This document shows, piece by piece, positions 3,411-52,853 of a stretch of 53,443 nucleotides of DNA; the first letter of the stretch is position 1; each line of letters starts with the position of its first letter. Origin of the DNA: Gammaproteobacteria bacterium (GTDB lineage: Bacteria; Pseudomonadota; Gammaproteobacteria; UBA9214). The stretch covers positions 1 through 53,443 of the forward strand of contig JAJDNX010000101.1 in NCBI GenBank assembly GCA_022340485.1, written 5' to 3'. Position numbers and translations under genes: made by a program. The notes under the pieces were generated by a model. It was not told the DNA's origin, did not search any database, and was given only the letters and a program-made list of their open reading frames with translations.

Positions 3411-3442
3411 CCTGATAACAACGGCCACAGAACCCGTTCATA

Positions 3443-3514
3443 GCCACGGAAGCACACGGAAAGAATGCTATTAACGAGTTCATCGTTCCATGTTCTTCCG
3501 TGTGCTTCCGTGGC
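3443..3514. repeat. Perfect 19-bp inverted repeat (intergenic palindromic element inside the Mrp operon)
   Basis: gccacggaagcacacggaa (3443-3461) and its exact reverse complement ttccgtgtgcttccgtggc (3496-3514), 34-nt loop. Confidence 0.9.
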
Positions 3515-3561
3515 AATATTTTTACGTTTTTTTAAGTTGCACCTGGATTGGAGAATAACGA

Positions 3562-3918
3562 ATGTCCGAGCTGTTGGGTCACTACAACTACTGGATCGTC
3601 ATCGTCCTGATGATGACCGGATTCTATATCGTTATTGCTCGACCCAACCTGATCAAGAAAGTCATTGGATTGTTTATCTTCCAGACCTCGGTGTTTATTT
3701 TTTTTATCAGCATAGCCAAGGTAGAGGGCGGCACGGCACCGATCATTGAGGAAGGCATCAGTGTCTACTCCAATCCGCTGCCACACGTGCTGATCCTCAC
3801 CGCCATCGTTGTCGGTCTTGCGACCACAGCCCTCGGGCTGGCGCTGGTGGTACGCATCAGGGAAGCCTACGGAACCATCAACGAAGACGACATCCACGTG
3901 CAGGACGAGGAAAGATGA
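3562..3918 (+). CDS. mnhC: Mrp/Mnh-type antiporter subunit C (NuoK-like)
   Basis: Three-TM NuoK-like protein; NPLPHVLILTAIVVGLATTALGLALVVRI motif. Confidence 0.87.
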   Translation: MSELLGHYNYWIVIVLMMTGFYIVIARPNLIKKVIGLFIFQTSVFIFFISIAKVEGGTAPIIEEGISVYSNPLPHVLILTAIVVGLATTALGLALVVRIREAYGTINEDDIHVQDEER

Positions 3919-3928
3919 GTTTCACACT

Positions 3929-5413: not shown

Positions 5414-5435
5414 AACCAGTGGCAGCCTCAACGGC

Positions 5436-6899: not shown

Positions 6900-6903
6900 C
6901 TCA

Positions 6904-7152
6904 ATGTCACAGGAACGGCAGCATCTATTCGACAAGCCGGAAAATGTGAGGCGCCTGTTACGGGTACTGTACCTGGCCTGTGCGCTGTTGCTGGCGGCCG
7001 ACCTGTTCGTGCACCGTCATGTCGAGCATGACTGGGAATCACTGTGGGGGTTCTACGCCGGGTTTGGATTCGCGGCCTGTGTATCGCTGGTCCTGATAGC
7101 CAGACAGCTGCGCAAGCTGCTGAAGCGCCCGGAGGATTACTATGAGCGCTAG
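6904..7152 (+). CDS. Small two-TM protein of the Mrp operon (82 aa, function unknown)
   Basis: Begins 4 nt after upstream stop, overlaps downstream start by 11 nt; two hydrophobic segments. Confidence 0.7.
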   Translation: MSQERQHLFDKPENVRRLLRVLYLACALLLAADLFVHRHVEHDWESLWGFYAGFGFAACVSLVLIARQLRKLLKRPEDYYER

Positions 7153-8833
7153 CCTGCCACCGTTTGCAATCTTCTTCGCGGGTGCACTGCTGCTGGTGCT
7201 GCTGCACGGCAGGCTGCAGAAAACCCTGCTACTGCTGGTCCCGCTACTCAGCGTGGCCCTGCTGCTTGGCGTACCGGAGGGGCTGGTTGTCAAGGTACAG
7301 CTACTCGGCTACGAACTGGTGCCTTACCGTACCGATCGGCTGAGCCTGTTGTTCGCGTATGTATTCAACCTGGCAGCATTTATCGGGATAGTCTTTTCAC
7401 TGCATGTGCAGGATCGTATTCAGCACGTTGCCACACTGGTCTATGCCGGCAGTGCGCTTGGTGCCGTACTTGCCGGCGACCTGATCTCAGTGTTTGTCTA
7501 CTGGGAGCTGGCGGCGGTCTCCTCGGTGTTTCTGATCTGGGCACGGCGGTCACCCCGGGCAGTGGCCGCCGGCTGGCGCTACCTGGTGTTCCAGTTTTTA
7601 TCCGGCCTGTTGTTGCTGGCCGGCATACTCATGCGTTTCCACGAAACCGGTTCGCTCGCCTTTGATTATATCGGGCTCGATGACGTTTCGGGCTGGCTGC
7701 TGTTCACCGCCTTTGGTATCAAGTGCGCCTTTCCGTTGCTGCATAACTGGCTGACCGATGCCTATCCCGAGGCCACGCCGAGTGGTACGGTTTTTCTCAG
7801 CGCCTTCACCACCAAGGCCGCCGTTTACATGCTGGCGCGTGGTTTTCCCGGTACCGAGATACTGATTTACATCGGCGCCATCATGACCTGCTTCCCGATC
7901 TTTTATGCCGTCATCGAAAATGATCTGCGGCGGGTACTTGCCTACAGCATGATCAACCAGCTTGGATTCATGGTCTGTGGCATCGGGATAGGCACCAGTC
8001 TCGCAATCAATGGCGCCGTGGCACATGCCTTCAATGACGTGCTTTTCAAGGGTCTGCTGTTTATGTCCATGGGTGCCGTGTTGCACATGACCGGAAAGAT
8101 CAGGGCCACCGATCTTGGTGGGCTCTACAAAAGCATGCCGGTCACCACGGGTCTATGCATCATCGGCGCCTGCTCGATCTCCGCGTTTCCCCTCTTCAGT
8201 GGTTTCGTCAGCAAGTCCCTGGTGATGGCCGCCGCGCTGCAGGAAGGCCACCACTGGGTGTGGCTGGTATTACTGTTTGCCTCTGCCGGCGTATTTCATC
8301 ATGCCGGCATCAAGATCCCGTTCTTTGCCTTCTTTGCCCAGGACTCCGGCATCCGGACAACCGAACCGCCGTTGAACATGCTACTGGCGATGGCACTGGC
8401 GGCAGTATTGTGCGTAACGATCGGGCTCTGGCCCGCCATGCTCTACAACCTGTTACCCTTCCCCGTGGACTATTCTCCCTATACGGTCACACATGTTCTG
8501 GCACAGCTGCAATTGCTGTTCTTTTCAGCACTGGCATTTACCTGGCTCAAGTTGAGTGGTCTGTACCCGCCGGAGATCCGCTCAGTCAACATTGATGTGG
8601 AGTGGTTCTACCGCTGGCTGGGCCCGCGTGCTGTAGCCCGGATGACGCGGGCACTCGATCGCTGGCAGGTCTATACGCGCATCGGTTTTCTGCGCCATCT
8701 GGGGACATTGTTTGGCACGCTGTTTCTGTATCATGGACCCCAGGGCATCCTGGCACGCACCTGGGCCACCGGCAGCATGGTCCTGTGGGTTGTCATCCTT
8801 CTCGGGCTCTACCTGGTTGCCTATTATTATTGA
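7142..8833 (+). CDS. MrpD/NuoL-M-like antiporter subunit, copy 3
   Basis: LISVFVYWELAAVSSVFLIW, GIKCAFPLLHNWLTDAYPEATPSGTVFLSAFTTKAAVYML. Confidence 0.87.
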   Translation: MSASLPPFAIFFAGALLLVLLHGRLQKTLLLLVPLLSVALLLGVPEGLVVKVQLLGYELVPYRTDRLSLLFAYVFNLAAFIGIVFSLHVQDRIQHVATLVYAGSALGAVLAGDLISVFVYWELAAVSSVFLIWARRSPRAVAAGWRYLVFQFLSGLLLLAGILMRFHETGSLAFDYIGLDDVSGWLLFTAFGIKCAFPLLHNWLTDAYPEATPSGTVFLSAFTTKAAVYMLARGFPGTEILIYIGAIMTCFPIFYAVIENDLRRVLAYSMINQLGFMVCGIGIGTSLAINGAVAHAFNDVLFKGLLFMSMGAVLHMTGKIRATDLGGLYKSMPVTTGLCIIGACSISAFPLFSGFVSKSLVMAAALQEGHHWVWLVLLFASAGVFHHAGIKIPFFAFFAQDSGIRTTEPPLNMLLAMALAAVLCVTIGLWPAMLYNLLPFPVDYSPYTVTHVLAQLQLLFFSALAFTWLKLSGLYPPEIRSVNIDVEWFYRWLGPRAVARMTRALDRWQVYTRIGFLRHLGTLFGTLFLYHGPQGILARTWATGSMVLWVVILLGLYLVAYYY

Positions 8834-22037: not shown

Positions 22038-22997
22038 ATGGCAACCCTTTTCAAATACCTCGGCATTGAATTCACCCCGGTGAGCCATACCGAGCGGCTG
22101 GTATCGGCCCTTGGCAGCACCCTGGTCATTGCCTGCATCTTTCTCATCAGCCGCGCATCACTCGGCCCGACCGCGTCCCTGTTGATCGTGCCCTCCATGG
22201 GCGCCTCTGCGGTATTACTGTTTGCGGTACCCCACGGAGCGTTGTCACAACCCTGGAATGTCTTCGGCGGCCACATACTCTCTGCCCTGGTCGGCGTGAG
22301 CTGCTCCATGAGCATCGCGAATGAAACTGCTGCCGCCAGTATTGCGGTTGGGGGTGCCGTCGGAGTCATGTATTACCTGCGCTGTATCCACCCGCCGGGC
22401 GGCGCCACGGCACTCGCCGCCGTCATCGGTGGTGAGGCTACGCACGCACTCGGGTACCAGTTTGTGATTACACCCGTCCTGGTCAATGTGCTGGTGATGC
22501 TGGCGATCGGGGTCGCCTTCAATTTCATCTTTCCGTGGCGACGCTACCCCGCGTGGCTGGTCAACAAGGAAAAGCAAGCGCCTGCCGAAACCACCTGGGT
22601 CTCAGAGCGGCCTATCGAACATGCCGATCTGGTTGCGGCACTGAGCCAGATAGATTCCTTCATTGATGTCTCTGAAAATGACCTGCTGCGCATCTATCAG
22701 CTCGCCACCGGCGAAGCCCACCAGCGCCACCTGCATCCCGGACAAATTTTGCTCGGCCATTATTATGCAAACGGCGAAGCCGGTGAAGACTGGTCACTTC
22801 GACAGATAGTCGACGAGTCTCCCAACAGCAACCCGGAGCAGGACATGGTTGTCTACAAGGTCGTCGCCGGTGTCGACCTGAGATCATCCGGCATAGAATC
22901 ACGCACCGACTTTGCCCGCTGGGCCAATCACGAAGTCGTGCGCGAGAATGAACACTGGAAACGCGTAGCCCCTGAGATGCAAGGAAAACCGCCATGA
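22038..22997 (+). CDS. HPP family membrane protein
   Basis: PSMGASAVLLFAVPHGALSQPWNVFGGHILSALVGV...YLRCIHPPGGATALAAVIGG; ATG 22038 preferred. Confidence 0.9.
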   Translation: MATLFKYLGIEFTPVSHTERLVSALGSTLVIACIFLISRASLGPTASLLIVPSMGASAVLLFAVPHGALSQPWNVFGGHILSALVGVSCSMSIANETAAASIAVGGAVGVMYYLRCIHPPGGATALAAVIGGEATHALGYQFVITPVLVNVLVMLAIGVAFNFIFPWRRYPAWLVNKEKQAPAETTWVSERPIEHADLVAALSQIDSFIDVSENDLLRIYQLATGEAHQRHLHPGQILLGHYYANGEAGEDWSLRQIVDESPNSNPEQDMVVYKVVAGVDLRSSGIESRTDFARWANHEVVRENEHWKRVAPEMQGKPP

Positions 22998-24370
22998 AAA
23001 CTGCAGAAAAAGGATCGTCAGAAAACGATCAAGGCATCTACCACGCCCCTTGGGAAAAGGCTTTTGACCGGGTCTTAACCCCCTTCGAGGAATTTATACA
23101 TCGCCAGACCACCAGTGGCCTGCTGTTGATGTCGACCGCCATACTTGCACTGCTGCTTGCCAATGGCCCCCTGGAATATTTTTACCAGCAGCTGCAGCAT
23201 CTCGAGGTCGGCCTCAGCATCGGCAGCTGGTCGCTGGAAAACGACCTGCACCACTGGATCAATGATGGCCTGATGGCCTTGTTCTTTTTCGTAGTCGGAC
23301 TGGAACTCAAGCGAGAAATCATGGTGGGTGAACTGGCAAACCCGCGCCAGGCGGCACTGCCCATCATTGCCGCGATCGGCGGCATGGTGGTACCCGCGTT
23401 GATCTACTTCGCGATCAACCCGCACGGCGATGCCGCCCGCGGCTGGGGCATCCCGATGGCGACGGACATTGCTTTTGCCCTTGGAGCCATTGCGCTGCTT
23501 GCCGGCCGCGTCCCCAAGGCATTGATCACCTTTCTGGTGGCGCTCGCCATCGTGGATGATCTCGGGGCAGTCATCGTGATTGCTGCTTTCTATACCGAGA
23601 CCCTCTCCATGGGCTGGTTGACTACCGCGGCTATCCTGTTTGGATTCCTGCTGATGCTCAATTTTGCCGGCATCCGCAAAATAACACCGTACTTCATCAT
23701 CGCCGTGTTTCTCTGGTACGCCTTGTTCGAGTCCGGCGTGCATGCCACCCTCGCTGGTGTGCTCGGTGCCTTCTCGATACCGGCACGTCCAAAATATGAT
23801 CCGTGCCGCTTCAGTGCGCAGGTCAAGGAATCCATCGCGCAATTCGATGCCAGCCATGTACCCGGGCAAAGTATTATGACCAATGACAAGCTGCGCGGCA
23901 TTGTACACTCTCTGGAGAGTGGTGCGCTGCAGGTCCAGGCACCGCTGCAGCGTCTTGAGCATGCCTGGCACCTGCCGGTCGCCTATCTGGTAATTCCTGT
24001 GTTCGCCCTGTTCAACGCCGGCATTCCGCTGGACTTCTCCAGTATCGGTACAACCCTGACACACCCGGTCACCCTCGGGGTATCCACGGGCCTGATCCTC
24101 GGCAAGGTACTCGGGATCTCGGTTTCCAGCTGGCTGGCAATCAAGGCAGGGATCGGACGCTTGCCGGCAGGCACCCGCTTTAACCAGATTGTCGGGGTCT
24201 CGTTGCTGGGTGGCATTGGCTTTACCATGTCCATCTTCATTGCCGAGCTGGGGTTTGCACACCAGCCGGAAATGCTGCTGATGGCCAAGACCGGCATCCT
24301 GTTTGCCTCGCTGTTTGCAGGTATTGCCGGTTTTATCTGGTTGTTCCTTGCCGGCAGCCGGGGGGACTGA
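22994..24370 (+). CDS. nhaA: Na+/H+ antiporter NhaA
   Basis: HWINDGLMALFFFVVGLELKREIMVGEL; GWGIPMATDIAFALG; VALAIVDDLGAVIVIA; GGIGFTMSIFIAELGF; ATGA overlap with HPP gene. Confidence 0.95.
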   Translation: MKTAEKGSSENDQGIYHAPWEKAFDRVLTPFEEFIHRQTTSGLLLMSTAILALLLANGPLEYFYQQLQHLEVGLSIGSWSLENDLHHWINDGLMALFFFVVGLELKREIMVGELANPRQAALPIIAAIGGMVVPALIYFAINPHGDAARGWGIPMATDIAFALGAIALLAGRVPKALITFLVALAIVDDLGAVIVIAAFYTETLSMGWLTTAAILFGFLLMLNFAGIRKITPYFIIAVFLWYALFESGVHATLAGVLGAFSIPARPKYDPCRFSAQVKESIAQFDASHVPGQSIMTNDKLRGIVHSLESGALQVQAPLQRLEHAWHLPVAYLVIPVFALFNAGIPLDFSSIGTTLTHPVTLGVSTGLILGKVLGISVSSWLAIKAGIGRLPAGTRFNQIVGVSLLGGIGFTMSIFIAELGFAHQPEMLLMAKTGILFASLFAGIAGFIWLFLAGSRGD

Positions 24371-32953: not shown

Positions 32954-34309
32954 TTACGCCTTGCTAAAAAAATCGAAGAACAGCCAGAAAACTACCGATG
33001 AGGTAACCAGGGTAAGAATCATGGCAGGGGTACCCTTTCTGAACCACAGCCCGGGGGTTATTGCCAGACTCGGATCATTGGCGTCCTTGGCGATCCGCTC
33101 TGAAAGGGTAACGATAAAGACATTTGCGGTAGATCCAAGGTGGGTACCATTGCCTCCCATGCCGACACCAATGGCCAGTCCCCACCACAGCGGCGTCACA
33201 TTGATACCCTGCTGTTCCATACCCAGAATGATCGGCACCATCGCTGCGGTAAACGGGATATTGTCAATCATGGCCGACAGGATTGCCGCGACCCACATCA
33301 GGAGAAGGGTTGCAAGCAGTAAATCCTGCTCTACAAATGGCCGGATGAACTGACCCAGGTACTCAAGAAAGTGACTGTTTTCAACGCCTCCAACAACGAC
33401 AAACAACGACATAAAAAACATCAACAGTGTCATCTCCACGGACTGGAACGACTCATCCATATCGACGTCGTAGCCGAGAAACACCAGCAGCGCCAGGCCG
33501 GATGCCGCGACAAACCAGGCATCCCAGTGCAGTGCATGGTGGAATATGAACAGCACCACCATGAGTCCCAAAACAATCAGGGCACTGTTCCAGGTACGCG
33601 GATCCTTGATCGTTTCCTGGTCAGCGAAGGACGTCTGTGTCGGCTTGACGGCAAGGTCCTTGCGAAAGAGGAGCTTCAGGGCAATCAGGATGGCGACCCA
33701 GGCAACGAATACCACTCCGGCCATGTGCACAAAGAAATCGTTGAAACTGATATTTGCAGCGGAACCAATCATCAGGTTGGGGGGATCACCAACCAGGGTG
33801 GCGACACCGCCGGTATCCGATAACAGCGCAGCCGCCAGCAAATAGGGAATGGGGTTGACCTTCAGCGCCTGGCAGATCAACACGATCAATGGACCAAATA
33901 TGACGACTGTCGTAACGTTATCCAGCAGCAGTGAGATGACGGTCACCGCTGTGCCAATCATTGCCATCAGCATAAACAGACGGCCGCGGCTCATATCGGC
34001 GAGTCGGTACGCGATAACCTGAAAACCACCGGTCGGAATCATGATGGCAACAATCGTCATCATGGCACCCAGTAGCAGAATCACATTCCAGTCGACCGCT
34101 TGCAGGGCCAGTTGTGGATTGTAGAAGCCGTAGTACTGGCCAACGACAATCATGATCCCGGCACCACCCATGGCGAATTTTGCGCGGTGGAAACCGTGCA
34201 CCCCTTCTGTAAATATGCCGATGAACGTCAGTATCAGGATGATTGCGGAGACCATCATGGGTGTGGTCCAGACCAGGGGTTCGGTCAGGGGCTCGGTCAG
34301 TGCTTCCAT
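32954..34309 (-). CDS. ArsB/NhaD-family ion transporter
   Basis: LLLDNVTTVVIFGPLIVLICQAL; AAALLSDTGGVATLVGDPPNLMIGSAA; IDNIPFTAAMVPI; GNGTHLGSTANVF. Confidence 0.87.
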   Translation of the reverse strand: MEALTEPLTEPLVWTTPMMVSAIILILTFIGIFTEGVHGFHRAKFAMGGAGIMIVVGQYYGFYNPQLALQAVDWNVILLLGAMMTIVAIMIPTGGFQVIAYRLADMSRGRLFMLMAMIGTAVTVISLLLDNVTTVVIFGPLIVLICQALKVNPIPYLLAAALLSDTGGVATLVGDPPNLMIGSAANISFNDFFVHMAGVVFVAWVAILIALKLLFRKDLAVKPTQTSFADQETIKDPRTWNSALIVLGLMVVLFIFHHALHWDAWFVAASGLALLVFLGYDVDMDESFQSVEMTLLMFFMSLFVVVGGVENSHFLEYLGQFIRPFVEQDLLLATLLLMWVAAILSAMIDNIPFTAAMVPIILGMEQQGINVTPLWWGLAIGVGMGGNGTHLGSTANVFIVTLSERIAKDANDPSLAITPGLWFRKGTPAMILTLVTSSVVFWLFFDFFSKA

Positions 34310-41555: not shown

Positions 41556-42068
41556 ATGTTGTCTCCATCGACAAACCTGCCCCTGCAATTCCTCAACCTC
41601 TGGTTGACGCTGCTGCTGATCTGGCTGATTGCCAACGGCACACTGGCCACCGACACCGTACTCGTCGGGGTTTTGGTCACCGCAGCCATCGCGCTGGCAT
41701 TCGCCGCCTTTGCGCGTGTCTACAGCGTGATCCGCTGGTCGCCACGGGTGATCTACAATTACCTGCTCTACCTGGGCGTATTTCTCCACGAACTGGTGAA
41801 GGCCAATCTCAACGTAATGGGCTACGTGTTCAGCAGGCACATCGATATTCACCCCGGCATCGTCGAGATCAAGACCCACCTGCAGTCGCCCATCGGCCGC
41901 CTCGCCCTGGCCAATTCCATCACCCTGACACCGGGTACCCTGGTTGTGGACATGCAGGGCGATTCGCTGTTCATCCACTGGATCAACGTTACCGAGACGG
42001 ATCCGGTTGCGGCCACGCAGGTGATTGCCGGACGCTTCGAGAAATACCTGAAGGTGATCTATGGCTGA
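41556..42068 (+). CDS. MnhE/MbhA-like subunit of complex I-like membrane complex
   Basis: LALANSITLTPGTLVVDMQGDSLFIHWI; first gene of second Mrp-type operon. Confidence 0.87.
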   Translation: MLSPSTNLPLQFLNLWLTLLLIWLIANGTLATDTVLVGVLVTAAIALAFAAFARVYSVIRWSPRVIYNYLLYLGVFLHELVKANLNVMGYVFSRHIDIHPGIVEIKTHLQSPIGRLALANSITLTPGTLVVDMQGDSLFIHWINVTETDPVAATQVIAGRFEKYLKVIYG

Positions 42069-42321
42069 GATTGCACTGACCACTGCCCTGGTGCTGATCT
42101 TCTTCAGCATCGTGTTCGGCATCATCCGACTGGTCATCGGACCCGACACGGTCGACCGCGTGGTCGCCATCGACCTGCTGACCATTGTCGCCATCGCGGT
42201 AATCGCGCTGCTGGCACATATTGGCAACCGTTATATCTACCTCGACGTGGCCCTGGTCTACGGCCTGCTGAGTTTCCTCGGTGTGCTCGCCGTTGCCCGT
42301 TTTCTTGAAAAAGGCATCTAG
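42061..42321 (+). CDS. MnhF/MbhB-like subunit
   Basis: RLVIGPDTVDRVVAIDLLTIVAIAVIALL...IYLDVALVYGLLSFLG. Confidence 0.87.
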   Translation: MAEIALTTALVLIFFSIVFGIIRLVIGPDTVDRVVAIDLLTIVAIAVIALLAHIGNRYIYLDVALVYGLLSFLGVLAVARFLEKGI

Positions 42322-42342
42322 TCGCAAGGTAATCCACTACTT

Positions 42343-42582
42343 ATGATTGCACTACTGACACTGCTGCTATGTGGCGGCATCCTTATCAGCGGCCTGCTCG
42401 CCGTGCTGCTCGACAACCTGGTCAGCGCCGTGATCAGCGCCGGTCTCGCCAGCCTGTTCGCGGCCGTGGTCTATGTGGTGCTGGCGGCACCCGACGTCGC
42501 CATGACCGAGGCCTCGATCGGCTCGGGTCTGTCGACCATGATTTTCCTGTATGCCATTCGCAAGACACGCGGCAAGGACTGA
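42343..42582 (+). CDS. DUF4040/MbhD-like subunit
   Basis: LLDNLVSAVISAGLASLFAAVVYVVLAAPDVAMTEASIGSGLSTMIFL. Confidence 0.87.
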   Translation: MIALLTLLLCGGILISGLLAVLLDNLVSAVISAGLASLFAAVVYVVLAAPDVAMTEASIGSGLSTMIFLYAIRKTRGKD

Positions 42583-42585
42583 GCC

Positions 42586-42930
42586 ATGGGTGAGTTGATC
42601 GGCAGTCTGTTCCTGCTGGGTGGTGCGATCTTTCTGTTCTCGGCCGGCCTTGGTGTACTGCGCATGCCGGACACCTATAACCGTATCCAGACCGGGACCA
42701 AGGCGACTACCCTGGGCACCATCCTGATCCTGGTCGGGCTGGCCTTCCTGCACCCGGCCTGGGCCCTCAAACTGATTATTCTGATCTTCTTCGTGATGCT
42801 TACCAACCCGGTGTCCTCCCACGCACTGGCACGCGCTGCCCATGCGATTGGCACGGCGGAGACCGAGTCCACCGTGATCGACCAGCTGGAAACACCCGCG
42901 AACGAGGATACCCGGGAGCAAGTGGAATGA
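42586..42930 (+). CDS. MnhG/MbhC-like subunit
   Basis: GGAIFLFSAGLGVLRMPDTYNRIQTGTKATTLGTILILVG. Confidence 0.88.
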   Translation: MGELIGSLFLLGGAIFLFSAGLGVLRMPDTYNRIQTGTKATTLGTILILVGLAFLHPAWALKLIILIFFVMLTNPVSSHALARAAHAIGTAETESTVIDQLETPANEDTREQVE

Positions 42931-42961
42931 ACCGCGCAACACGGCAGGCCCTGCCAGGGAA

Positions 42962-43711
42962 ATGGGCCATATGATCAAGCGCATTGTCATCCTGCTGGTG
43001 CTGCTCATGCTGGCCTTCATCTTTGTCAACCTCGCTGCCAGCTACAGCGAGCAGACATCGCTGTCGGCACTGGGCCACTACTACGTCGAGCAGGGGCCGT
43101 CGGAACTTGGCGCTGCCAACCTGGTGACGGCTGTGGTAGTTACCTACCGTGGCCTGGATACCCTCGGCGAGGTCACGGTACTGTTCATCTCCGCCGCCGG
43201 TGTCGGTCTGCTGTTGCGCCGCACCCGGCGCAAGGATGACCACGAGGACCTCGAACAGGGAGACCGCGCAGAGGAAACGGCCATCGCACGCAAGCCCGCC
43301 AGTGAAATTGTCGAGACAGCGACCGAACTGCTGCTACCGATGGTCATCCTGTTTGGTATCTATGTGTTCCTGAACGGCCACCTGTCCCCCGGTGGCGGCT
43401 TCCAGGGCGGTGCCATTATCGCCTCCGGCACCATGTTCCTGTTGCTGGCCCTGCCCGAGTCACACATCAGCCGCCTGATGATCGCCATCACCGAATCACT
43501 CTCCGGCTTCAGCTATGTCGTCATCGGCGTGCTCGGCGTGATCCTGGCCGGCGGCTTCCTCGACAACCGCATCATCGGCCTCGGCACCTATGGCCATCTC
43601 TTCAGCGCCGGTGCCATACCGCTGATTTATGTGTTTGTCGGCCTCAAGGTAGGTTTTGAGCTCAGCGCAGTACTCGACCGCTTCCGCAAGGAGGACAGCG
43701 GACCGCTATGA
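42962..43711 (+). CDS. MnhB/MbhE-F-like subunit
   Basis: TYRGLDTLGEVTVLFISAAGVGLLL (MbhE-like) plus NGHLSPGGGFQGGAIIASGTMFLLLA (MnhB/MbhF). Confidence 0.87.
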   Translation: MGHMIKRIVILLVLLMLAFIFVNLAASYSEQTSLSALGHYYVEQGPSELGAANLVTAVVVTYRGLDTLGEVTVLFISAAGVGLLLRRTRRKDDHEDLEQGDRAEETAIARKPASEIVETATELLLPMVILFGIYVFLNGHLSPGGGFQGGAIIASGTMFLLLALPESHISRLMIAITESLSGFSYVVIGVLGVILAGGFLDNRIIGLGTYGHLFSAGAIPLIYVFVGLKVGFELSAVLDRFRKEDSGPL

Positions 43712-44088
43712 GTTTCTTTGGCGACCTGCAGATTTCAATGATCGTACTGTGCAGCGGCCTCGGGCTGGTCCTGATCGGCCTGTGGGGCATACTGACACAG
43801 CGCAATCTCATTCGCATGATCATCGGCTTTTCGCTTCTGGATACCGGGATTCACATGGTGATGGTCTCGATTGGTTATGTAACCGGCGGCACCGCACCGA
43901 TCATCAATGACGACGTGCCCATGGCCACAGCGGTTAGCCGCGTCGTTGACCCGGTGCCGTCCGCGCTGGTACTGACCGCAATCGTCATCGGCCTCGGCGT
44001 TACTGCCGTGATGCTGTCTTTCGCGGTACGCATTTTCCGGGCACGCAGGACACTGATGATCGATGAATGCACGGAGTCGAAATGGTAG
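43708..44088 (+). CDS. MnhC/MbhG-like (NuoK-like) subunit
   Basis: DPVPSALVLTAIVIGLGVTAVMLSFAVRI; ATGA overlap. Confidence 0.88.
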   Translation: MSFFGDLQISMIVLCSGLGLVLIGLWGILTQRNLIRMIIGFSLLDTGIHMVMVSIGYVTGGTAPIINDDVPMATAVSRVVDPVPSALVLTAIVIGLGVTAVMLSFAVRIFRARRTLMIDECTESKW

Positions 44089-47000
44089 AAGGCTTCATCA
44101 CCCAGGTACTGCTGCAGCCGCTGGGCATCTATGTTGTCGCGCTGGGTGCAGGCTTCCTGGTTCCACTGTTCGACCGCGCGCACCGCAGCTCGGCCATCCT
44201 GCTGTTCTTCCTGGCCCTTGCCGGCATGGTTGCGATTGCCGGCATCAACCTGCTAGCAATCCTGAACGGCGCCGCCCCGATCCAGATCGAAACTGCAGGT
44301 ATTGCGCCGCCATTTGCCATCAACCTGCGCTTTGGACTGTACGAAGGCGGCTTCGTACTCGCGGTCAACAGCATCGCGCTGCTGGGCGCTCTGCACTGGC
44401 TGCCGTCACTGCGGCAACATGCCTCCGCGCTGTTGCTGTACCTGATCATGGTGATGGGCATCAACGGGATGGTGATGACCCGCGACCTGTTCAACCTGTT
44501 TATCTTTATCGAAATCACCTCGATCGCCACCTATGCCCTGATCGGCATGGAACGCACCGGCTCCGTACTCGCTGCCGGCTTCAAGTACATTATCGCGACC
44601 TCGGTGGCCTCGGCATTCTTCCTGCTGGGGACGATCTTCCTGTATTACCTTACCGGTACACTGAATATCGATGGCATGGTGGCACAACGCGAGCTGATCA
44701 GCGGCCCGATTGGTTTTATCGCGACGCTGTTTTTGCTGACCAGCCTGCTGATCGAACTGAAGCCCTATCCCGCTAATGGCTGGGGACTGGACGTATACGA
44801 AACCGCGCCCGGCGGCATTGCAGCACTGATCTCCGTCGGCGTCTCCGCCGGCGTGTTTTTCGCATTGTTGAAGACGCTGCCGCTGCTGGACAATTACCTG
44901 AGCAGCATCGCCGTGGTCGGCGGTGCCACCTTCCTGCTCTCCAACCTGATTGGCCTGAAACAGGACAATGCCAGACGCCTGCTTGGCTATTCCTCCATTG
45001 GCCAGATGGGGCTGCTGACACTGGCGCTGGCGGCGACGGTACAGCTTGGCATCGAGGCACAATTACCGCTGGTCGCGGGCGGTCTGTTCATCAACCACCT
45101 GCTGGCCAAGGCAGGACTGTTCTGGCTGGCGGATCTGGTCAACCGCAACTCCACCAGGGACTGGTCGGTGCTTGCCGGACGGCCAGGGCGGTTACTGTTG
45201 TTCGGCATCCTGCTGAGCGCACTGGTTGGCCTGCCGCCCTTCCCCGGCTTCTGGGCAAAGTGGGTACTGGTGACGGAACTCGCCGCCGGCGGCCTGTATC
45301 CCTGGATCACCGTGGTGCTGCTGGGCTCGCTGCTGGAGGCCGCCTACCTGTTCCGCTGGTTTACGCAGGCCCTGCAGACGCGGGAATCCGATACACCCGA
45401 CACCATCCGCCTCGAGAGTCTGCTGCCAGTCGCCCTCGCCGCCCTGCTGCTGTTTGCCACCGGCTATGGCATGGCCGTGCAACTCGAGAGTGACACCCTG
45501 ATCATGTTCCTGCCACTGCTGGCCGGTACCGCACTGTGGCTGCTGGACGGCCTGCCGGGCCTTCTCAAGAGCCTGCTGATGCTGGTCGTGGTCGCTGCCG
45601 GCGGTGCCTGGCTGACGCTCGACCTGGAAGGCCTGAACCGCATCTTCGGTTTCATTCTCGTCGGCGGTGGTGTGCTGCTCAGCCTGGCAACCCAGTACCG
45701 CAGCGACGTCCGCAAGGGCTTCTACCCTTTGCTTGGCATCCTGCTGCTATCGCTGGCGACGCTGTTGCGCGCGCATACCAGCCTGGAGTTCTTCTTTAGC
45801 TGGGAGCTCATGACGCTGAGTTCCTACCTGCTGGTGACACTTGGCCGTGGCGGTGCGAAACCGGCGCTGACCTACCTGCTGTTCTCGCTCGCTGCGGCCT
45901 ACTTCATCCTTGCCGGATTCGCCCTGGCCTATGCGGCCAGCGGTAGCCTCGAGCTGGCGGCACTTGGGGATACGGGTAGCTCCATGGGCCTGGTGTTCAG
46001 CCTGCTGGCTGCCGGCTTCGTTATCAAGACCGGTGGCCTCGGCGTGCACATCTGGGTACCGGGTACATACGGGGAGGCAGACGACGACTTCACTGCAGTG
46101 CTCTCCGCCGTGGTCAGCAAGGCCGCCATCTTTGGCCTGCTGCTGGTCGCCGCACAGCTCGGCATACGTTCCGACATCGGCCTCGACCCGGCCTACGTGC
46201 TTGGCTGGATCGGCATGCTCACCGCGACCTTCGGCGCATTGATGGCAGTATTCCAGGAAGACATCAAGAAACTGCTCGCCTACTCCAGCATGGGCCAGCT
46301 CGGCTACATCGTCACCGGAATCGCACTGATGAGCCATCTCGGCTGGGTGGCCGCGCTCTACCTGACGGTAAATCATTTCCTCTTCAAGGGCATCCTGTTC
46401 CTTGCCGTCGCCGGCGTGGTGCTGCGCACCAGCGAGCGCCTGATGTACAAGATGGGCGGGCTGATCAAGAACATGCCGTTCACCTTCGTCGCCACCATGA
46501 TCGCCATCATTGCCATGTCCGGCGTACCCCCACTGACCGGCTTTGGCGGCAAGTGGCTGCTGTTCAATGCCATGATGGAGAAGGGCTGGTACTGGCTGGC
46601 GGCACTGGCCTTCTTCTCCAGCGCGGTGGCCTTCCTTTACATGTACCGGCTGCTGCATACCGTGTTTCTGGGACAGCGCAAGCTGGAACATGCGCAATTG
46701 CGAGAGGCCCCCGCCATTCTGCTGGTACCCCAGTTCCTGCTGATCGGCATCATTATGGTGTTTTCCGCCTATCCAAAACTGCTGCTGGAGCCGCTGTCGA
46801 GCGCAATCAGCCCGTGGCTGGCCGGCAACCTGGTATGGGACGGTCTGTCGCTGCACACCCACCTCGGTTACTGGAATGCCCCCATGATCATGGGTGTTGT
46901 CGCGGGGGTGTGGATGATACCGCTGCTGTTCCTGCTACTGATGTCGCTGACCCTGAAGATCCAGAAGGTCGGGCAGTTCAATATCGTGTTTGCCGCAGAA

Positions 47001-47240
47001 CGCCCGCACCGTCCGGAAGACACGCATTTTGCCTATAACTTTTTCGCGCACTACGACCGCGCCCTCGGCTTCCTGGTGAAGCCGCGAGCGACTGCCTTCT
47101 GGAACAGCATCGTCGAGTGGAGCCATACCCTGGCCGCGTCCTTGCGAATTTTCTATAACGGCAACGGCCAGACCTATGCATTGTTCATCGTGATGTATCT
47201 GGTGGTGTTGTTCCTGGTGAATGGAGGGCTGCAGCTGTGA
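44067..47240 (+). CDS. Tandem fusion of two MrpD/NuoL-M-N-like antiporter subunits (1057 aa)
   Basis: Two antiporter-M modules: NLFIFIEITSIATYALIG/IELKPYPANGWGLDVYETAPGG and FFFSWELMTLSSYLLVTLG/IKTGGLGVHIWVPGTYGEADDDFTAVLSAVVSKAAIF; start 44067 or ATG 44082. Confidence 0.9.
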   Translation: MHGVEMVEGFITQVLLQPLGIYVVALGAGFLVPLFDRAHRSSAILLFFLALAGMVAIAGINLLAILNGAAPIQIETAGIAPPFAINLRFGLYEGGFVLAVNSIALLGALHWLPSLRQHASALLLYLIMVMGINGMVMTRDLFNLFIFIEITSIATYALIGMERTGSVLAAGFKYIIATSVASAFFLLGTIFLYYLTGTLNIDGMVAQRELISGPIGFIATLFLLTSLLIELKPYPANGWGLDVYETAPGGIAALISVGVSAGVFFALLKTLPLLDNYLSSIAVVGGATFLLSNLIGLKQDNARRLLGYSSIGQMGLLTLALAATVQLGIEAQLPLVAGGLFINHLLAKAGLFWLADLVNRNSTRDWSVLAGRPGRLLLFGILLSALVGLPPFPGFWAKWVLVTELAAGGLYPWITVVLLGSLLEAAYLFRWFTQALQTRESDTPDTIRLESLLPVALAALLLFATGYGMAVQLESDTLIMFLPLLAGTALWLLDGLPGLLKSLLMLVVVAAGGAWLTLDLEGLNRIFGFILVGGGVLLSLATQYRSDVRKGFYPLLGILLLSLATLLRAHTSLEFFFSWELMTLSSYLLVTLGRGGAKPALTYLLFSLAAAYFILAGFALAYAASGSLELAALGDTGSSMGLVFSLLAAGFVIKTGGLGVHIWVPGTYGEADDDFTAVLSAVVSKAAIFGLLLVAAQLGIRSDIGLDPAYVLGWIGMLTATFGALMAVFQEDIKKLLAYSSMGQLGYIVTGIALMSHLGWVAALYLTVNHFLFKGILFLAVAGVVLRTSERLMYKMGGLIKNMPFTFVATMIAIIAMSGVPPLTGFGGKWLLFNAMMEKGWYWLAALAFFSSAVAFLYMYRLLHTVFLGQRKLEHAQLREAPAILLVPQFLLIGIIMVFSAYPKLLLEPLSSAISPWLAGNLVWDGLSLHTHLGYWNAPMIMGVVAGVWMIPLLFLLLMSLTLKIQKVGQFNIVFAAERPHRPEDTHFAYNFFAHYDRALGFLVKPRATAFWNSIVEWSHTLAASLRIFYNGNGQTYALFIVMYLVVLFLVNGGLQL

Positions 47241-48163
47241 TTGCGGAATGGTTTGGCAGGGCCGGTAATTTCAGCCTGACGCTGCTGATCGTGACAGTCT
47301 ACGGCCTGCTCGTGGGTGCTTTCATCGAACGCACCATCGCGAAAGTACAGGGTCGCATCGGCATCCCCTACCGGCAGCCATTTATCAACATCCTGAAAAC
47401 CCTGGTCAAGCGCACCGCCGTCAGCCACGGCATCATGTTCTACCTCGGACCGGTATTCCGCATCGCCGGCGGCATTGGCACACTGGCCTTCATCCCGGTG
47501 ATCTACGGCAGCGAAACCTTTGCGAATTTCAGCTACGCCGGCGACCTGTTCCTGGTGATCTACTTTATGTTCTTCGGCCAGCTGGGCATGGCGCTGGGTG
47601 CAGGAGAAAGCGGCCATCCCTACAGTGCCATCGGCATCGCCCGCGGCCTGTCGCAGATGACGGCCTACGAGGTACCATTCGCGCTGGCCGTGATCTCCAT
47701 CGTGATCCAGTACGACACCCTGTCGATCACCGAGATCGTAGCCGCGCAGCAGGGCGGCTGGCAGCACTGGACACTGTTCACCAACTGGGTGGCAACACTG
47801 GCTGCCATGCTCGCCTTCCTCGGCATGACGGGCTATTCGCCGTTTGACATCTTCCTGGCTCCTCAGGAGATCCCGATTGGCCCGCCGACCGAGTTCCACA
47901 GCGCTTACCTGTCACTGCTGCAGACCAACCGTGCCCTGTTCGGAGCAACCAAGCTGGTGTTGTTCATGAACCTGTTTTTCGGCGGTGCCACCGGCTGGAT
48001 CGAATTGATGATCAAGACCCTGGCAATCTACATGGTGGCGGTGGTCGTCGGCGTGGCCTTTCCGCGCTTCCGCGTCGACCAGTCGATCCGTTTCTTCTTC
48101 AAGATCCCGACGCTGATCGGGATAATTTCCATAATTTATGTGCAGATGATGTTCACGTCCTGA
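47237..48163 (+). CDS. NuoH/MbhM-like membrane subunit
   Basis: GAFIERTIAKVQGRIGIPYRQPFINILKTLVKR; AYEVPFALAVISI; PFDIFLAPQEIPIGPPTEFHSAY. Confidence 0.88.
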   Translation: MIAEWFGRAGNFSLTLLIVTVYGLLVGAFIERTIAKVQGRIGIPYRQPFINILKTLVKRTAVSHGIMFYLGPVFRIAGGIGTLAFIPVIYGSETFANFSYAGDLFLVIYFMFFGQLGMALGAGESGHPYSAIGIARGLSQMTAYEVPFALAVISIVIQYDTLSITEIVAAQQGGWQHWTLFTNWVATLAAMLAFLGMTGYSPFDIFLAPQEIPIGPPTEFHSAYLSLLQTNRALFGATKLVLFMNLFFGGATGWIELMIKTLAIYMVAVVVGVAFPRFRVDQSIRFFFKIPTLIGIISIIYVQMMFTS

Positions 48164-48206
48164 GCAGTACAATCAGACTGTCAAGCCGTAGTGTGAGGCA
48201 CTTACG

Positions 48207-48839
48207 ATGAAAAAGACTCCGAGCACCCTTAGCACGCTGGAAAATGCGGGACTCTCGGCCGAGGATCAGCTGCTGTTCTCCAATGCGCGGCCCAGGCCCT
48301 ACGAGCCCTATCCGATCAAGGCGATAGAGGATTTCGCCAACTGGGCACGCGCCAACTCGCTGTGGATCCTGGCCTTTGGCACCGGCTGCTGTTCGATCGA
48401 GCTGCGCCCGCTGATGACGGCGCGTTTCGACGCCAGCCGCTTTGGCGTCGCCGGCCGGCCTACCCCGCGGCAGTCATCGGTATTCATCATTGGCGGCTAC
48501 GTCTCGGTCAAAACACTGAAGCGCATTGTGCGCAGCTATGAGCAGATGCAAGGGCCGAAATTCATTATCGCGCTCGGCAGCTGCCCGGCGAATGGCGGCA
48601 TGTACTTCGACAGCTACAACACCATCAACCAGTTCGATCTGTACCTGCCGGTGGACCTGTACGTCACCGGTTGCATGCCGCGGCCGGAGGCACTGCTCGG
48701 TGCGATCCTGGAACTGCAGGATGACATCAAGGCGGGCAAGTGTGACGGCGCCAACCGCTATATCGAACACTTCGACGAGTACAAGGCCAACCAGAAGAAG
48801 GTCATCAAGGACTGGAACATGCCGGACTACAACTGGTAA
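48207..48839 (+). CDS. NuoB/MbhJ-like subunit with four N2-cluster Cys (tandem CC)
   Basis: FGTGCCSIELRPLMTARFDASRFGVAGRPTPRQSSVFIIGG; ALGSCPANGG; VTGCMPRPEALL. Confidence 0.92.
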   Translation: MKKTPSTLSTLENAGLSAEDQLLFSNARPRPYEPYPIKAIEDFANWARANSLWILAFGTGCCSIELRPLMTARFDASRFGVAGRPTPRQSSVFIIGGYVSVKTLKRIVRSYEQMQGPKFIIALGSCPANGGMYFDSYNTINQFDLYLPVDLYVTGCMPRPEALLGAILELQDDIKAGKCDGANRYIEHFDEYKANQKKVIKDWNMPDYNW

Positions 48840-48872
48840 CCCCATGACAGACGATCGAACCAAGGAAATAGA

Positions 48873-49418
48873 ATGATGAGTGAACTGCTGGACAGACTGG
48901 TGCGTGATTTCGGTGTCACGGACATCACCGAGCGCCCTCCGGCAATCACCACCCTGAAAGTGAGCAAGGAAAACGGCGAGCGGCTGATCCGCGAACTGCG
49001 CGACCGCGAGGGCTTCACCCACCTCAACTTCATCGCCTGCACCGACTGGATCGAGGATGGTATTTTCAGGCTGATCTATATGCTGCACAACTACGACAGC
49101 AAACAGAACCTCGGCGTACACATCGATATCAAGCGCGACCATGCCGAGATGACCTCCATCCATACGCTGTGGGCGCAAGCCTGGACCTACCAGCGTGAGT
49201 TGCGCGAGATGTATGGCATCCACTTTCCCGGAAGTCCGCGGCTCGAGGAGGATTTCTGCCTCGAAGGCTGGGACGCCATGCCGCCAATGCGGCGTGATTT
49301 CGATACTGCGAAATACAGCGCGGAACGCTTTGGCCACCGCGAGGGCCGCGTCAGCCTGGTGCCGCGCGATCACATGAAGGTACAGCTCTACCCGAACCGC
49401 GGAGGGGATGAATCATGA
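48873..49418 (+). CDS. NuoC/MbhK-like subunit
   Basis: LNFIACTDWIEDGIFRLIYMLHNY; SIHTLWAQAWTYQRELREMYGIHFPGSP. Confidence 0.88.
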   Translation: MMSELLDRLVRDFGVTDITERPPAITTLKVSKENGERLIRELRDREGFTHLNFIACTDWIEDGIFRLIYMLHNYDSKQNLGVHIDIKRDHAEMTSIHTLWAQAWTYQRELREMYGIHFPGSPRLEEDFCLEGWDAMPPMRRDFDTAKYSAERFGHREGRVSLVPRDHMKVQLYPNRGGDES

Positions 49419-50584
49419 CCTTGGTAACGGGACACTCCGCCGCGCTGGACTTCGCCCAGCCCGACCCGGTCGACCTGTCGTCGGGTAAATACGTCAAGCT
49501 GTGGCAGGGACCGCAACACCCCGGTATCACCGGCAACATGTCATTGGAACTGGTACTCGACGGTGACACCATCATCGAGTGCAAGACCCATGTCGGGTAC
49601 CTGCACCGCGGCTTCGAGAAACTCATGGAGCAGCGCACCTTCATCCAGAACTTCACCGTGGTGTGCCGCATCGCGGTACCCGAGCCGGCCTTCAACGAAT
49701 ACCTGTACGCGGCCGCAATCGAGGCCATCAGCGGCGTTCAGTCACCGCCGCGCGCGCAGTGGCTGCGCACGCTGAACCTGGAAATGATGCGCCTCGCCAG
49801 CTTCCTGATGTGGATCGGCGGCCAGGGCGGCGCGTTCGGCCAGTATACCGTAGCCAACTGGAGCCTCACCTACCGCGACTACGTGCTCGACCTGTTCGAG
49901 GAAATGACAGGGGCGCGCATCTACCATATGTACATGGTGCCCGGCGGTGTGCGCGCCGGCCTACCGGCTGGATTTGAGAAGCGCATTCTCAAGCTGATGG
50001 ATGACACCGACAAGCTGCTCGACCAGATCGAACGCGTGATGTACAACAACGTGGTATTCAAGGCACGTGCCAAGGGGCTCGGCGTCATTACCCGGGAAAT
50101 GGTGGACCCGTACGGCGTGGTCGGCCCGAATGCACGCGCCAGCGGTTTCCGACGCGACCTGCGCAAGGACGAACCCTATCTGGTGTATGACCAGCTCGAT
50201 TTCAATGTCATCAGCGGCAGTGCCGGTGATGCCTACGAACGCGCGTATCTGCGCTTGCAGGAAACCCGCCAGAGCGTCAACCTGATTCGCCAGGTCATCG
50301 CCGGTGCACCGTCGGATGGCCCGTTCCAGGCCGACATGCCGAACCTGCTGCACTGGAAGGTGCCGGCCGGTGAAACCTATGTGAAAGCAGAGTGCACCCG
50401 TGGCGAGTATGGCTACTACATGGTCACCGACGGCACCGAGATCGTGCGCCGCGTGCACGTGCGCGGTCCGAGCTACACCCATGCCATCGCACTGATGGAA
50501 CGCCTTGCGGTCGGCACCAATATCGCGGACATCGCCGGACTGATGGTATCACTGCACACCTATCCGCCCGAGATCGAGCGCTAA
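49415..50584 (+). CDS. NuoD/MbhL-like subunit without NiFe-site cysteines
   Basis: WQGPQHPGITGNMSLELVLDGD; VGYLHRGFEKLMEQRTFIQNF; PPRAQWLRTLNLEMMRLASFLMWIG; CTRGEYGYYMVTDGT; ATGA overlap with previous CDS. Confidence 0.92.
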   Translation: MTLVTGHSAALDFAQPDPVDLSSGKYVKLWQGPQHPGITGNMSLELVLDGDTIIECKTHVGYLHRGFEKLMEQRTFIQNFTVVCRIAVPEPAFNEYLYAAAIEAISGVQSPPRAQWLRTLNLEMMRLASFLMWIGGQGGAFGQYTVANWSLTYRDYVLDLFEEMTGARIYHMYMVPGGVRAGLPAGFEKRILKLMDDTDKLLDQIERVMYNNVVFKARAKGLGVITREMVDPYGVVGPNARASGFRRDLRKDEPYLVYDQLDFNVISGSAGDAYERAYLRLQETRQSVNLIRQVIAGAPSDGPFQADMPNLLHWKVPAGETYVKAECTRGEYGYYMVTDGTEIVRRVHVRGPSYTHAIALMERLAVGTNIADIAGLMVSLHTYPPEIER

Positions 50585-50596
50585 GCAGGAAAGATC

Positions 50597-52405
50597 ATGA
50601 ACCTGAAAGACTTGCTATCACCGTTCTACGTCTGGCAACGCGCCTTCGAGAAGCCCTATACCTCCATACGGCCCATACAGGAGCGACCCGGTGCCGCCGC
50701 CTATCGTGGCTTTCATATCAATATCAGCGAGGAATGCATCGGTTGCGGCACCTGCCACAAGATCTGCCAGAACGACGCCATCGACATGGTAAGAGTCGAG
50801 ACCTATGAAGGTCGCAGTGGTGACAGCGGCTTGCGCCCGCGCTTCGACTACGGCCGCTGCTGCTGGTGCGCCCTGTGCGTGGACATGTGTCCCGCCGGTT
50901 CGCTGCGCATGAGCAACGAGTACACCTGGATTACCAGCGACCCGACGGAGTTTCACTTCACCGCGGGCGTCGAGCACACCACCTGGCAGGACAATCCTCT
51001 GGGATACCACCGCGCGGAAGGCTACCACCTGTACCCGCCGAAGCGCATAGAAATGGAAATGCTACCCCCGGAGGTGAGCGTACAGTCGTTTGATGAAGTC
51101 GTCGCGGGTTACAGCGAACCACAGGCGCTGCTGGAGGCCGACCGCTGCATCGAATGCGGCATCTGCGTTGCCACCTGCCCGGCCCACATGGACGTTCCCG
51201 ACTACATCCGCAGTATCCGTGACCGCGATTACGAGAAGGGCCTGCAACTGATGTACCGCACCAACCCCTTCCCCGCCACCTGCGGGCGTATCTGCACGCG
51301 CCGTTGCGAGTCGGTATGCCCGGTCGGCATCCAGGGAGAAGCGATCGCCATTCGCTGGCTGAAACGCTTCATCGTCGACCAGATCCAGCCGCAGGACTAC
51401 GCCCGCATTCTGGCCGACCAGACCGGAAACAGTGGCCACCGCGTCGCCATCATCGGTGCCGGTCCCGGTGGCCTGAGTGCGGCCTATTACCTGCGCAAGC
51501 AAGGCCACGCGGTGACCGTATTCGAGGCGCAGGCAAGTGCCGGCGGCATGCTGCGCTACGGCGTGCCCAGCTATCGCCTGCCGGATGCAGACCTCGACAA
51601 GGACATCAATTACATCGTGTCACTCGGCGTGGACATTCGCTACAACACGCGCATCGGCAAGGACATTCGCTTCGAACAACTGCTGCAGGACTTCGATGCG
51701 CTGTTCCTGTCCACCGGCCTGTCGGTACCCTCCAGCATGCGCATCCACGGCGAGGAGCACCCGCGCGTGCTGTCCGGCCTGCAGGTGCTTGCCGATGTCG
51801 CCAGTGGTCGCGACCCGGGCGTCGGTCAAAAGGTCGCCGTCATCGGTGGCGGCAACGTTGCCATGGACGCGGCGCGGGTCTCGCGGCGTCTTGGCGCCGA
51901 GGTCACCATCCTTTACCGTCGGCGGATCGCAGACATGCCGGCGGATACCGAGGAAATACATGAATCACAGGAAGAAGGCTGCCACATCGTCACCCAGGCG
52001 ATCCCGGTAGAAATCATTGCGGCTAGCAGCCCGCAACAGGTTTCGATCAAGTGGGGTGAGGCCGAAATGGTACAGGACCCCAAGGGCGGTCGGCCACGCC
52101 CGGTGCTACAGGAAGACCGGATGCATGTGGAGACCTACGACTGCATCATTTCGGCCATCGGCCAGGGCAGCGACCTCGAGTTCCTGTCAAAGGAGATACA
52201 GGATCAGCTGGCCATCGAGTGGGGCAAATTCGCGCCGGGTGAATACCAGCACACCTCGCTGCAAAAGGTCTTCGTCGGCGGTGACGTTGCCAATCGCACC
52301 GCCGATGCCATCAGCGCCATCGAGGACGGCCATCACGCCGCGCGCGGCATCGACCGGTTCCTGAACCCGGACGCCCGGACGCATACAGACCAGGAGGTGA
52401 ACTGA
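50597..52405 (+). CDS. NuoI/MbhN-like 2[4Fe-4S] ferredoxin fused to GltD/NfnL-like NAD(P)H FAD oxidoreductase
   Basis: CIGCGTCHKIC and CCWCALCVDMCPAG; then CIECGICVATCPAHMDVPDYI...CGRICTRRCESVCPVG, FAD fold VAIIGAGPGGLSAAYYL, NAD(P) fold VAVIGGGNVAMDAARVSRRLGAEVTILYRRR. Confidence 0.93.
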   Translation: MNLKDLLSPFYVWQRAFEKPYTSIRPIQERPGAAAYRGFHINISEECIGCGTCHKICQNDAIDMVRVETYEGRSGDSGLRPRFDYGRCCWCALCVDMCPAGSLRMSNEYTWITSDPTEFHFTAGVEHTTWQDNPLGYHRAEGYHLYPPKRIEMEMLPPEVSVQSFDEVVAGYSEPQALLEADRCIECGICVATCPAHMDVPDYIRSIRDRDYEKGLQLMYRTNPFPATCGRICTRRCESVCPVGIQGEAIAIRWLKRFIVDQIQPQDYARILADQTGNSGHRVAIIGAGPGGLSAAYYLRKQGHAVTVFEAQASAGGMLRYGVPSYRLPDADLDKDINYIVSLGVDIRYNTRIGKDIRFEQLLQDFDALFLSTGLSVPSSMRIHGEEHPRVLSGLQVLADVASGRDPGVGQKVAVIGGGNVAMDAARVSRRLGAEVTILYRRRIADMPADTEEIHESQEEGCHIVTQAIPVEIIAASSPQQVSIKWGEAEMVQDPKGGRPRPVLQEDRMHVETYDCIISAIGQGSDLEFLSKEIQDQLAIEWGKFAPGEYQHTSLQKVFVGGDVANRTADAISAIEDGHHAARGIDRFLNPDARTHTDQEVN

Positions 52406-52406
52406 C

Positions 52407-52853
52407 ATGAATAGCGTGGATGAAATACTCGACTATGCCATTGACCAGGAACAGCAGGCCGCGGACTTCTACGCAGACCTGGCCGGCCGTGCCGAAAAGG
52501 CCGGCATGAAGGAAATCCTGCTGGATTTCGCCGCCGAGGAACAAAGCCACAAGCAACGGCTGCTGGCGGTAAAAGCCGGTGACCACAAGCTGACACCGGA
52601 ACAGCAGGTGCTGGACCTGAAGATCTCCGACTACCTCGTTGAGGTCGGTGCCAGCGCCAACATCTCTTATCAGGATGCACTGATCGTTGCCATGAAGCGG
52701 GAGCGTGCCGCCTTCCAGCTGTACAGCGACATGGCGGCAAAGGTGCCGGAAGGACATTTGAAGGAGGTCCTGCAGGGTCTCGCCAAGGAAGAGGCCAAAC
52801 ACAAGCTGTTCTTCGAATCGGAGTACGACGACCGCGTACTGCGGGATAACTAA
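52407..52853 (+). CDS. Ferritin-like / rubrerythrin-related di-iron protein
   Basis: EQQAADFYADLAGRAEKAGMKEILLDFAAEEQSHKQRL and RERAAFQLYSDMAAKVPEGHLKEVLQGLAKEEAKHKLFFE with two ExxH motifs; 1 nt after previous stop. Confidence 0.85.
   Translation: MNSVDEILDYAIDQEQQAADFYADLAGRAEKAGMKEILLDFAAEEQSHKQRLLAVKAGDHKLTPEQQVLDLKISDYLVEVGASANISYQDALIVAMKRERAAFQLYSDMAAKVPEGHLKEVLQGLAKEEAKHKLFFESEYDDRVLRDN

Follow-up and report, generated by a model that had tools for sequence, protein, structure and literature searches.

The window (the whole stretch of DNA analysed, 53,443 nucleotides long) contains a conserved operon, at positions 41556-52853, which comprises Mrp subunits, a double antiporter, NuoH-, NuoB-, NuoC- and NuoD-like subunits, a fusion protein and, in last position, a ferritin-like diiron protein (Table 1); the fusion is the sole gene of the operon whose product binds NAD(P)H. 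The ORF of the fusion is a single intact frame of 602 aa which begins with the ATG at 50597 and whose stop ends at 52405, and the initial annotation, which had described it as uninterrupted and as endowed with several clusters and folds, proved exact as to coordinates, frame and length. The ferredoxin half displays two NuoI-type motifs (C47-C50-C53-C57 and C88-C91-C94-C98), the GltD-type domain two further sets of cysteines (C184-C187-C190-C194 and C229-C233-C237-C241), and these are accompanied by the FAD motif GAGPGG and by a nucleotide fold, GGGNVAM, followed by Y440-R441-R442-R443. The corresponding Pfam domains are Fer4_7 (residues 47-101), Fer4_20 (163-264) and Pyr_redox_2 (282-578), and among the 21 homologues aligned the cysteines of the cofactor motifs are almost all invariant. 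Beyond the ferredoxin half, the closest solved structures are those of NfnB/NfnL, NfnABC and StnC; with the predicted model of the fusion (AlphaFold, from a 21-row alignment), in which the ferredoxin half has a pLDDT <50 and is thus not resolved, Foldseek ranked P. furiosus NfnL at the top.

The search for the same architecture across genomes, which had been suggested along with the initial description, yielded full-length homologues in ~24 genomes, with the gene in the same operon position wherever the contig extends far enough. The occurrence of the intact fusion in all these genomes rules out an assembly or frameshift artefact, the objection that had been foreseen for the single ORF.

As to the other products of the operon, the MbhD-like family between the F and G subunits is found also in 12 related loci, and in the ferritin-like protein all six diiron ligands (E15, E45, H48, E99, E129 and H132) are invariant. 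The residues of the double antiporter E149, E230, E580, K654, K685 and K829 correspond to pump residues of MBS; the residues so named in MBS are mostly kept, the exceptions being one lysine of the first half, which is a central-axis residue, and one histidine position of the second half.

Table 1. Features of the operon and of its fusion gene (window coordinates)
Feature	Position	Strand	Basis or remark
MrpE-like subunit	41556..42068	+	Pfam MNHE 1.9e-35; syntenic in relatives
MrpF-like subunit	42061..42321	+	NCBIfam antiporter subunit F models
MbhD-like small membrane protein, 79 aa	42343..42582	+	ORF
MrpG-like subunit	42586..42930	+	over NCBIfam cut-off for MnhG/PhaG
MbhE/MrpB-like fused subunit	42962..43711	+	Pfam MbhE + MnhB
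MrpC/NuoK-like subunit	43708..44088	+	Pfam Oxidored_q2
Two antiporter-like subunits in one 1057-aa protein, MbsH-like then MbsH'-like	44067..47240	+	two Proton_antipo_M stretches
NuoH/MbsM-like membrane anchor	47237..48163	+	6u8y_M best solved match
NuoB/MbsJ-like subunit, proximal [4Fe-4S] cluster	48207..48839	+	6u8y_J best solved match
Tandem C61-C62 codons (GTGCCSIE), proximal cluster	48387..48392	+	most relatives GTGCG or CTGCG
NuoC-like subunit	48873..49418	+	Pfam Complex1_30kDa
NuoD/MbsL-like subunit lacking both quinone His/Tyr and NiFe cysteines	49415..50584	+	6u8y_L best match; motifs
Fusion of NuoI/MbsN ferredoxin and StnC/NfnB-type FAD-NAD(P)H dehydrogenase, 602 aa	50597..52405	+	
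Ferredoxin (NuoI/MbsN) half, residues 1-110	50597..50926	+	best solved match 6u8y_N
K256 codon, StnC K170-type lysine by FAD-proximal cluster	51362..51364	+	K in 23/23 fusions
YRRR codons, Y440-R443, predicted NADP 2'-phosphate site	51914..51925	+	only in clade A1
Diiron ferritin-like/rubrerythrin-like protein, no rubredoxin domain	52407..52853	+	Pfam Rubrerythrin

Relationship to MBS, complex I and hydrogenases

The closest solved relative of the NuoH-, NuoB- and NuoD-like subunits, of both antiporter halves (chains 6u8y_H and 6u8y_X) and of the ferredoxin domain is, by a clear margin, MBS (6u8y). The NuoD-like subunit scores 313 bits with 6u8y_L and 227 with complex I, and the NuoB-like subunit 201 bits with 6u8y_J and 137 with the best-scoring complex I type; for the NuoH-like subunit the scores are 146 bits with 6u8y_M, 63 with MBH and 57 with the best-scoring NDH chain. 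The whole MBS/MBX subunit set, i.e., Mrp, two antiporter and NuoH/B/C/D-like subunits, is present in the one operon. Furthermore, the quinone-head residues of complex I (H38 and Y87 of Nqo4) are replaced by T39 and V88 in the NuoD-like subunit, and MBS likewise lacks the quinone-site His and Tyr (PMC7684303). No NuoEFG genes were found within the operon, and a separate nuo operon with NuoEFG is located on contig C117 of the same genome. The MBS-closest partners and the missing quinone residues thus identify, with near certainty, a complex I-related, Mrp-containing complex of the MBX/MBS type beside an ordinary, NuoEFG-containing complex I; the fusion is the predicted electron-input subunit of the former.

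These data modify the picture in which the fusion takes the place of NuoEFG and wires NAD(P)H directly to the peripheral arm. The replacement of NuoEFG finds no support, MBS being devoid of NuoEFG and the genome retaining its own nuo operon, nor does the quinone-reducing complex I implied by that picture, in view of T39 and V88; the wiring to a peripheral arm survives insofar as the fusion would be an input and its ferredoxin half matches MbsN/NuoI, but the arm is that of an MBX/MBS pump and not that of complex I.

Two other identities were considered for the complex. That of complex I is rejected by reason of the missing quinone-site residues and the closer MBS relatives, that of a group 4 [NiFe] hydrogenase (MBH) by the large subunit: no NiFe-binding CxxC pairs are found in the NuoD-like subunit, which reads RIAVPEP and ends with YPPEIER.

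Lineages of the fusion and their distinguishing residues

Three clades were set from NuoD/NuoB and from the N-terminal half of the fusion, ahead of the test on its C-terminal half: A1 (the window, L051 and others), A2 (L042 and L078-L081) and B (L043-L050). The tree of NuoD plus NuoB and that of the N half (residues 1-270) agree in placing A1 as sister of A2 with B apart, the latter tree supporting A1+A2 against B at 100/100. The C-terminal half (residues 371-595), on the other hand, conflicts with this order in that A2 is placed among B; on this half, both a monophyletic B (AU p=0.00014) and the keeping together of A2 (AU p=0.0006) are rejected. In L042, moreover, a switch from A1-like to B-like (L049-like) sequence occurs inside residues 270-370. 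The tree conflict and this switch indicate an exchange of the dehydrogenase half between lineages, this half having an ancestry different from that of the rest of the complex. The wider tree is close to a trichotomy of A1, B+A2 and the Nfn/Stn group, so that the recipient of the foreign half may have been either A1 or A2.

In every A1 member the nucleotide fold is followed by LYRRR, whereas A2 and B have TALE (or TAME, CALE) at the YRRR position, with a six-residue insert; the curated core of PRK13984, as represented by L078, is also TALE-type. The solved NADP-dependent relatives (NfnB/NfnL/StnC/NfnABC) have a YRR that aligns with the YRRR of the window. Since YRR is common to these relatives, NADPH is the likely electron donor of the window complex, and the earlier suggestion that the Arg-rich stretch favors NADPH fits both these relatives and the absence of the motif in the sister lineages. 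An acidic residue at this position commonly binds the 2'-OH, and its presence in the TALE-type motif suggests that the A2 and B fusions probably use NADH.

The proximal cluster of the NuoB-like subunit is a second site of variation. Clade B reads CTGCG, exactly as MBS does, and most A1 and A2 members read GTGCG, which results in three cysteines; the GTGCC tandem pair, as in complex I, is found in the window, L017, L021 and L023/L024. Catalysis by MBS has been ascribed to an iron without a Cys ligand (PMC7684303); if C61 and C62 were both ligands, the open iron proposed for this catalysis would be gone, and this possibility is the chief ground for doubt about the acceptor. The lineage of the window might be pictured as an MBX that received an exchanged NADP-type half, its donor changing from NADH to NADPH, and in whose proximal cluster the tandem cysteines of complex I reappeared independently; we put this forward only tentatively and deem it rather doubtful but, if true, the complex would represent a natural intermediate linking MBS with complex I and having an acceptor chemistry not yet described. 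In any event, the set of loci offers a natural comparison of one pump whose input is either of the YRRR (NADP-type) or of the TALE (predicted NAD-type) kind and whose catalytic cluster has three or four candidate cysteines, which makes two questions testable: does NAD(P)H suffice as the donor of an MBX, and what is the role of the complex I tandem cysteines at the proximal cluster?

Relatives of the fusion were found in 13 of the 274 genomes of the class and 6 of the 399 of the phylum (the genome of the window being counted in both and a few matches being partial), as well as in several gammaproteobacterial MAGs. The antiporter pair is encoded by a single gene in A1 and A2 and by separate genes in most clade B loci, and nearly every locus of A1, A2 and B has a ferritin-like diiron gene after the fusion. 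One MAG, MAG_Ve_Sed_41, has two different MBX operons (L021 and L024), the second of which is nearly identical to L023 of another MAG, so that cross-binning is possible. In the chromosome CP070738.1 (bin397; L026:10001-12000) the fusion is represented by no more than a fragment, which covers query 89-590 in two frames, and a ferritin-like gene is present but no NuoB/C/D nearby; this may be a decayed copy or an assembly error.

Proposed electron flow and alternative readings

The host MAG (2.77 Mb in 161 contigs) has a DsrA over the cut-off and a RuBisCO split across two contig ends; pyruvate:ferredoxin oxidoreductase, glycogen phosphorylase and a Hox-type hydrogenase were recognized by eye, the operon is flanked by GlgX and a PPDK gene, and further glycogen genes are located on contig C5. 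DsrA, RuBisCO and the glycogen/PPDK genes suggest that the host is probably a sulfur-oxidising autotroph which, when oxygen is short, would ferment glycogen, the MBX passing the electrons of NADPH to stored sulfur. A gene for a PRK12771-type NAD(P)-binding protein (L068:6992-8611; 774 bits, over the cut-off) is also located on C5, adjoining pyruvate:ferredoxin oxidoreductase and glycogen genes. Besides the MBX, the window is rich in antiporter loci (37-1188, 2448-8833, 22994-24370 and 32957-34309), namely a CPA-type exchanger, a second Mrp-like operon, NhaA and a CitMHS/ArsB-type carrier.

If NADPH is the donor, what could be the acceptor? The overall explanation that we favor, with a probability of about 0.6, is an NADPH-fed pump of the MBX/MBS type that reduces sulfane sulfur. 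NADPH would bind to the GltD/StnC-like half and transfer a hydride to FAD, from which electrons would travel singly, by way of the two [4Fe-4S] clusters of GltD type and of the pair of ferredoxin clusters present in the same polypeptide, until they reach the proximal [4Fe-4S] cluster in the NuoB-like subunit; at this last cluster a sulfane-sulfur compound (polysulfide or persulfide) would be reduced, while the antiporter-like subunits would move H+, and Na+ would pass through the Mrp part, the setting being the anoxic use of stored glycogen and sulfur by a sulfur-oxidising autotroph. The assembly into one complex, the donor, the acceptor, the direction and the ion coupling are all points that we infer. 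Taken by itself, the reduction of sulfane sulfur has somewhat less than an even chance. In T. maritima the mbx genes (mbxA) rise with S0 and no S0 reductase activity was found in the membranes (PMC9431562), and the Mrp-Mbx of the gammaproteobacterial Riftia symbiont has been assigned, by analogy, to S0 reduction (PMC11636981). The non-conserved central-axis lysine of the first antiporter half speaks against the proposed pump. The potential of NADPH is only ~50-100 mV below that of polysulfide, so that the coupling would be weak compared with that of the ferredoxin-driven MBS.

This small gap also makes the NADPH/polysulfide reaction nearly reversible, and this favors the opposite direction, in which the ion gradient would drive the reduction of NADP+ from sulfide or persulfides to provide NADPH for CO2 fixation. 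A host with DsrA and RuBisCO, probably a sulfur-oxidising autotroph, would need such NADPH, and the several other Na+/H+ antiporters of the window could maintain the ion gradients. Nevertheless, we consider this reversal, although a serious alternative, rather unlikely, since the expression of the T. maritima MBX rises with S0 (PMC9431562), the Riftia symbiont Mrp-Mbx groups with rTCA and not with sulfur-oxidation/CBB genes (PMC11636981) and the genes flanking the operon fit fermentation. A quinone-reducing variant of complex I with an NADPH input would account for the NuoB/C/D/H-like subunits and for the tandem Cys pair at the proximal cluster, yet the loss of the quinone His and Tyr, the closeness of all tested partners to MBS and the complex I already present in the genome render it quite improbable.

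The least credible alternative is a bifurcating enzyme, the FAD of which would send part of the electrons of NADPH to the peripheral arm and the others to a second acceptor, which might be the adjacent diiron protein. Indeed, R327 of the fusion is conserved and corresponds to Arg187 of T. maritima NfnB, which contacts N5 of the FAD (PMC6405883), and the ferritin-like gene co-occurs with the fusion. However, the equivalent Arg is present also in StnC, without the N5 contact, and the FAD of StnC is non-bifurcating and just relays the electrons of NADPH (PMC10482914). Furthermore, the ligand of the FAD-proximal cluster is a glutamate in NfnB and K170 in StnC (PMC10482914), the motif at this cluster being LERF in NfnB/NfnL and LKRF in the NfnABC chains; K256 of the fusion lies within an LKRF motif, at the position of K170 according to the aligned ranges and the NfnABC alignments. 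Finally, no NfnA/NfnS-like partner was found among the genes conserved in related loci. With bifurcation of the Nfn type disfavored by K256 and by the absent NfnA-like neighbor, a simple electron-input module appears to be the better reading.

Comparison with known systems

The architecture of the fusion is already catalogued as PRK13984 (NCBIfam NF010590, 'putative oxidoreductase'), a family including T. maritima, which carries the fusion; its members also join a NuoI-like ferredoxin to a GltD-like flavoprotein, and the relatives end MBX-type operons. The model spans the fusion end to end (residues 2-591 against 7-608 of 611), but the window protein scores 680 bits, below the curated cut-off of 946, which among the relatives scored is passed only by L078 and T. 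maritima. The C-terminal domain alone is nearer to PRK12771 (329 bits) than to PRK13984 (285 bits), and the window has YRRR where the curated PRK13984 member L078 has TALE. By these scores, the fusion is a divergent relative of PRK13984 and not a curated member. New relative to this catalogued architecture are the YRRR of the clade of the window, the exchanged dehydrogenase half, the tandem Cys and the invariant lysine arguing against bifurcation. In the open-access literature, which was the part searched, neither a description of the fusion nor biochemistry of a fusion-bearing MBX was found, a negative which, being confined to open-access papers, weighs little. In this literature, bacterial MBX that include an NAD(P)H dehydrogenase of their own seem to be uncharacterised.

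StnC of the Sporomusa ovata StnABC (8oh5) and NfnABC (9bov, 9n5u) resemble the window protein in that a GltD-like NADPH/FAD module is joined to Fe-S domains of the complex I type and in the LKRF lysine by the FAD-proximal cluster; however, the domain of StnC is NuoG-like and what it supplies is a soluble bifurcating module, whereas the domain of the window protein is NuoI-like and would feed a membrane pump. NfnB/NfnL (4ylf, 5jca) come closest in fold to the C-terminal half of the model and share with it YRR and R327, but they are bifurcating, with a glutamate-ligated cluster (LERF) and an NfnA partner, in place of which the fusion has the lysine and, at related loci, no such partner.

Finally, the P. 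furiosus MBS/MBX (6u8y) has the same Mrp-type small subunits, two antiporter-like subunits and NuoH/B/C/D-like subunits and also lacks the quinone His/Tyr. Its electron source is ferredoxin (PMC7684303), received via MbsN alone, whereas the MbsN of the window continues into an NAD(P)H dehydrogenase; furthermore, the two antiporters of the window form a single protein, the vestigial Cys (C85/C385) have disappeared and the tandem Cys are gained, in a family of complexes of which MBS has been presented as the link between hydrogenases and complex I (PMC7684303).
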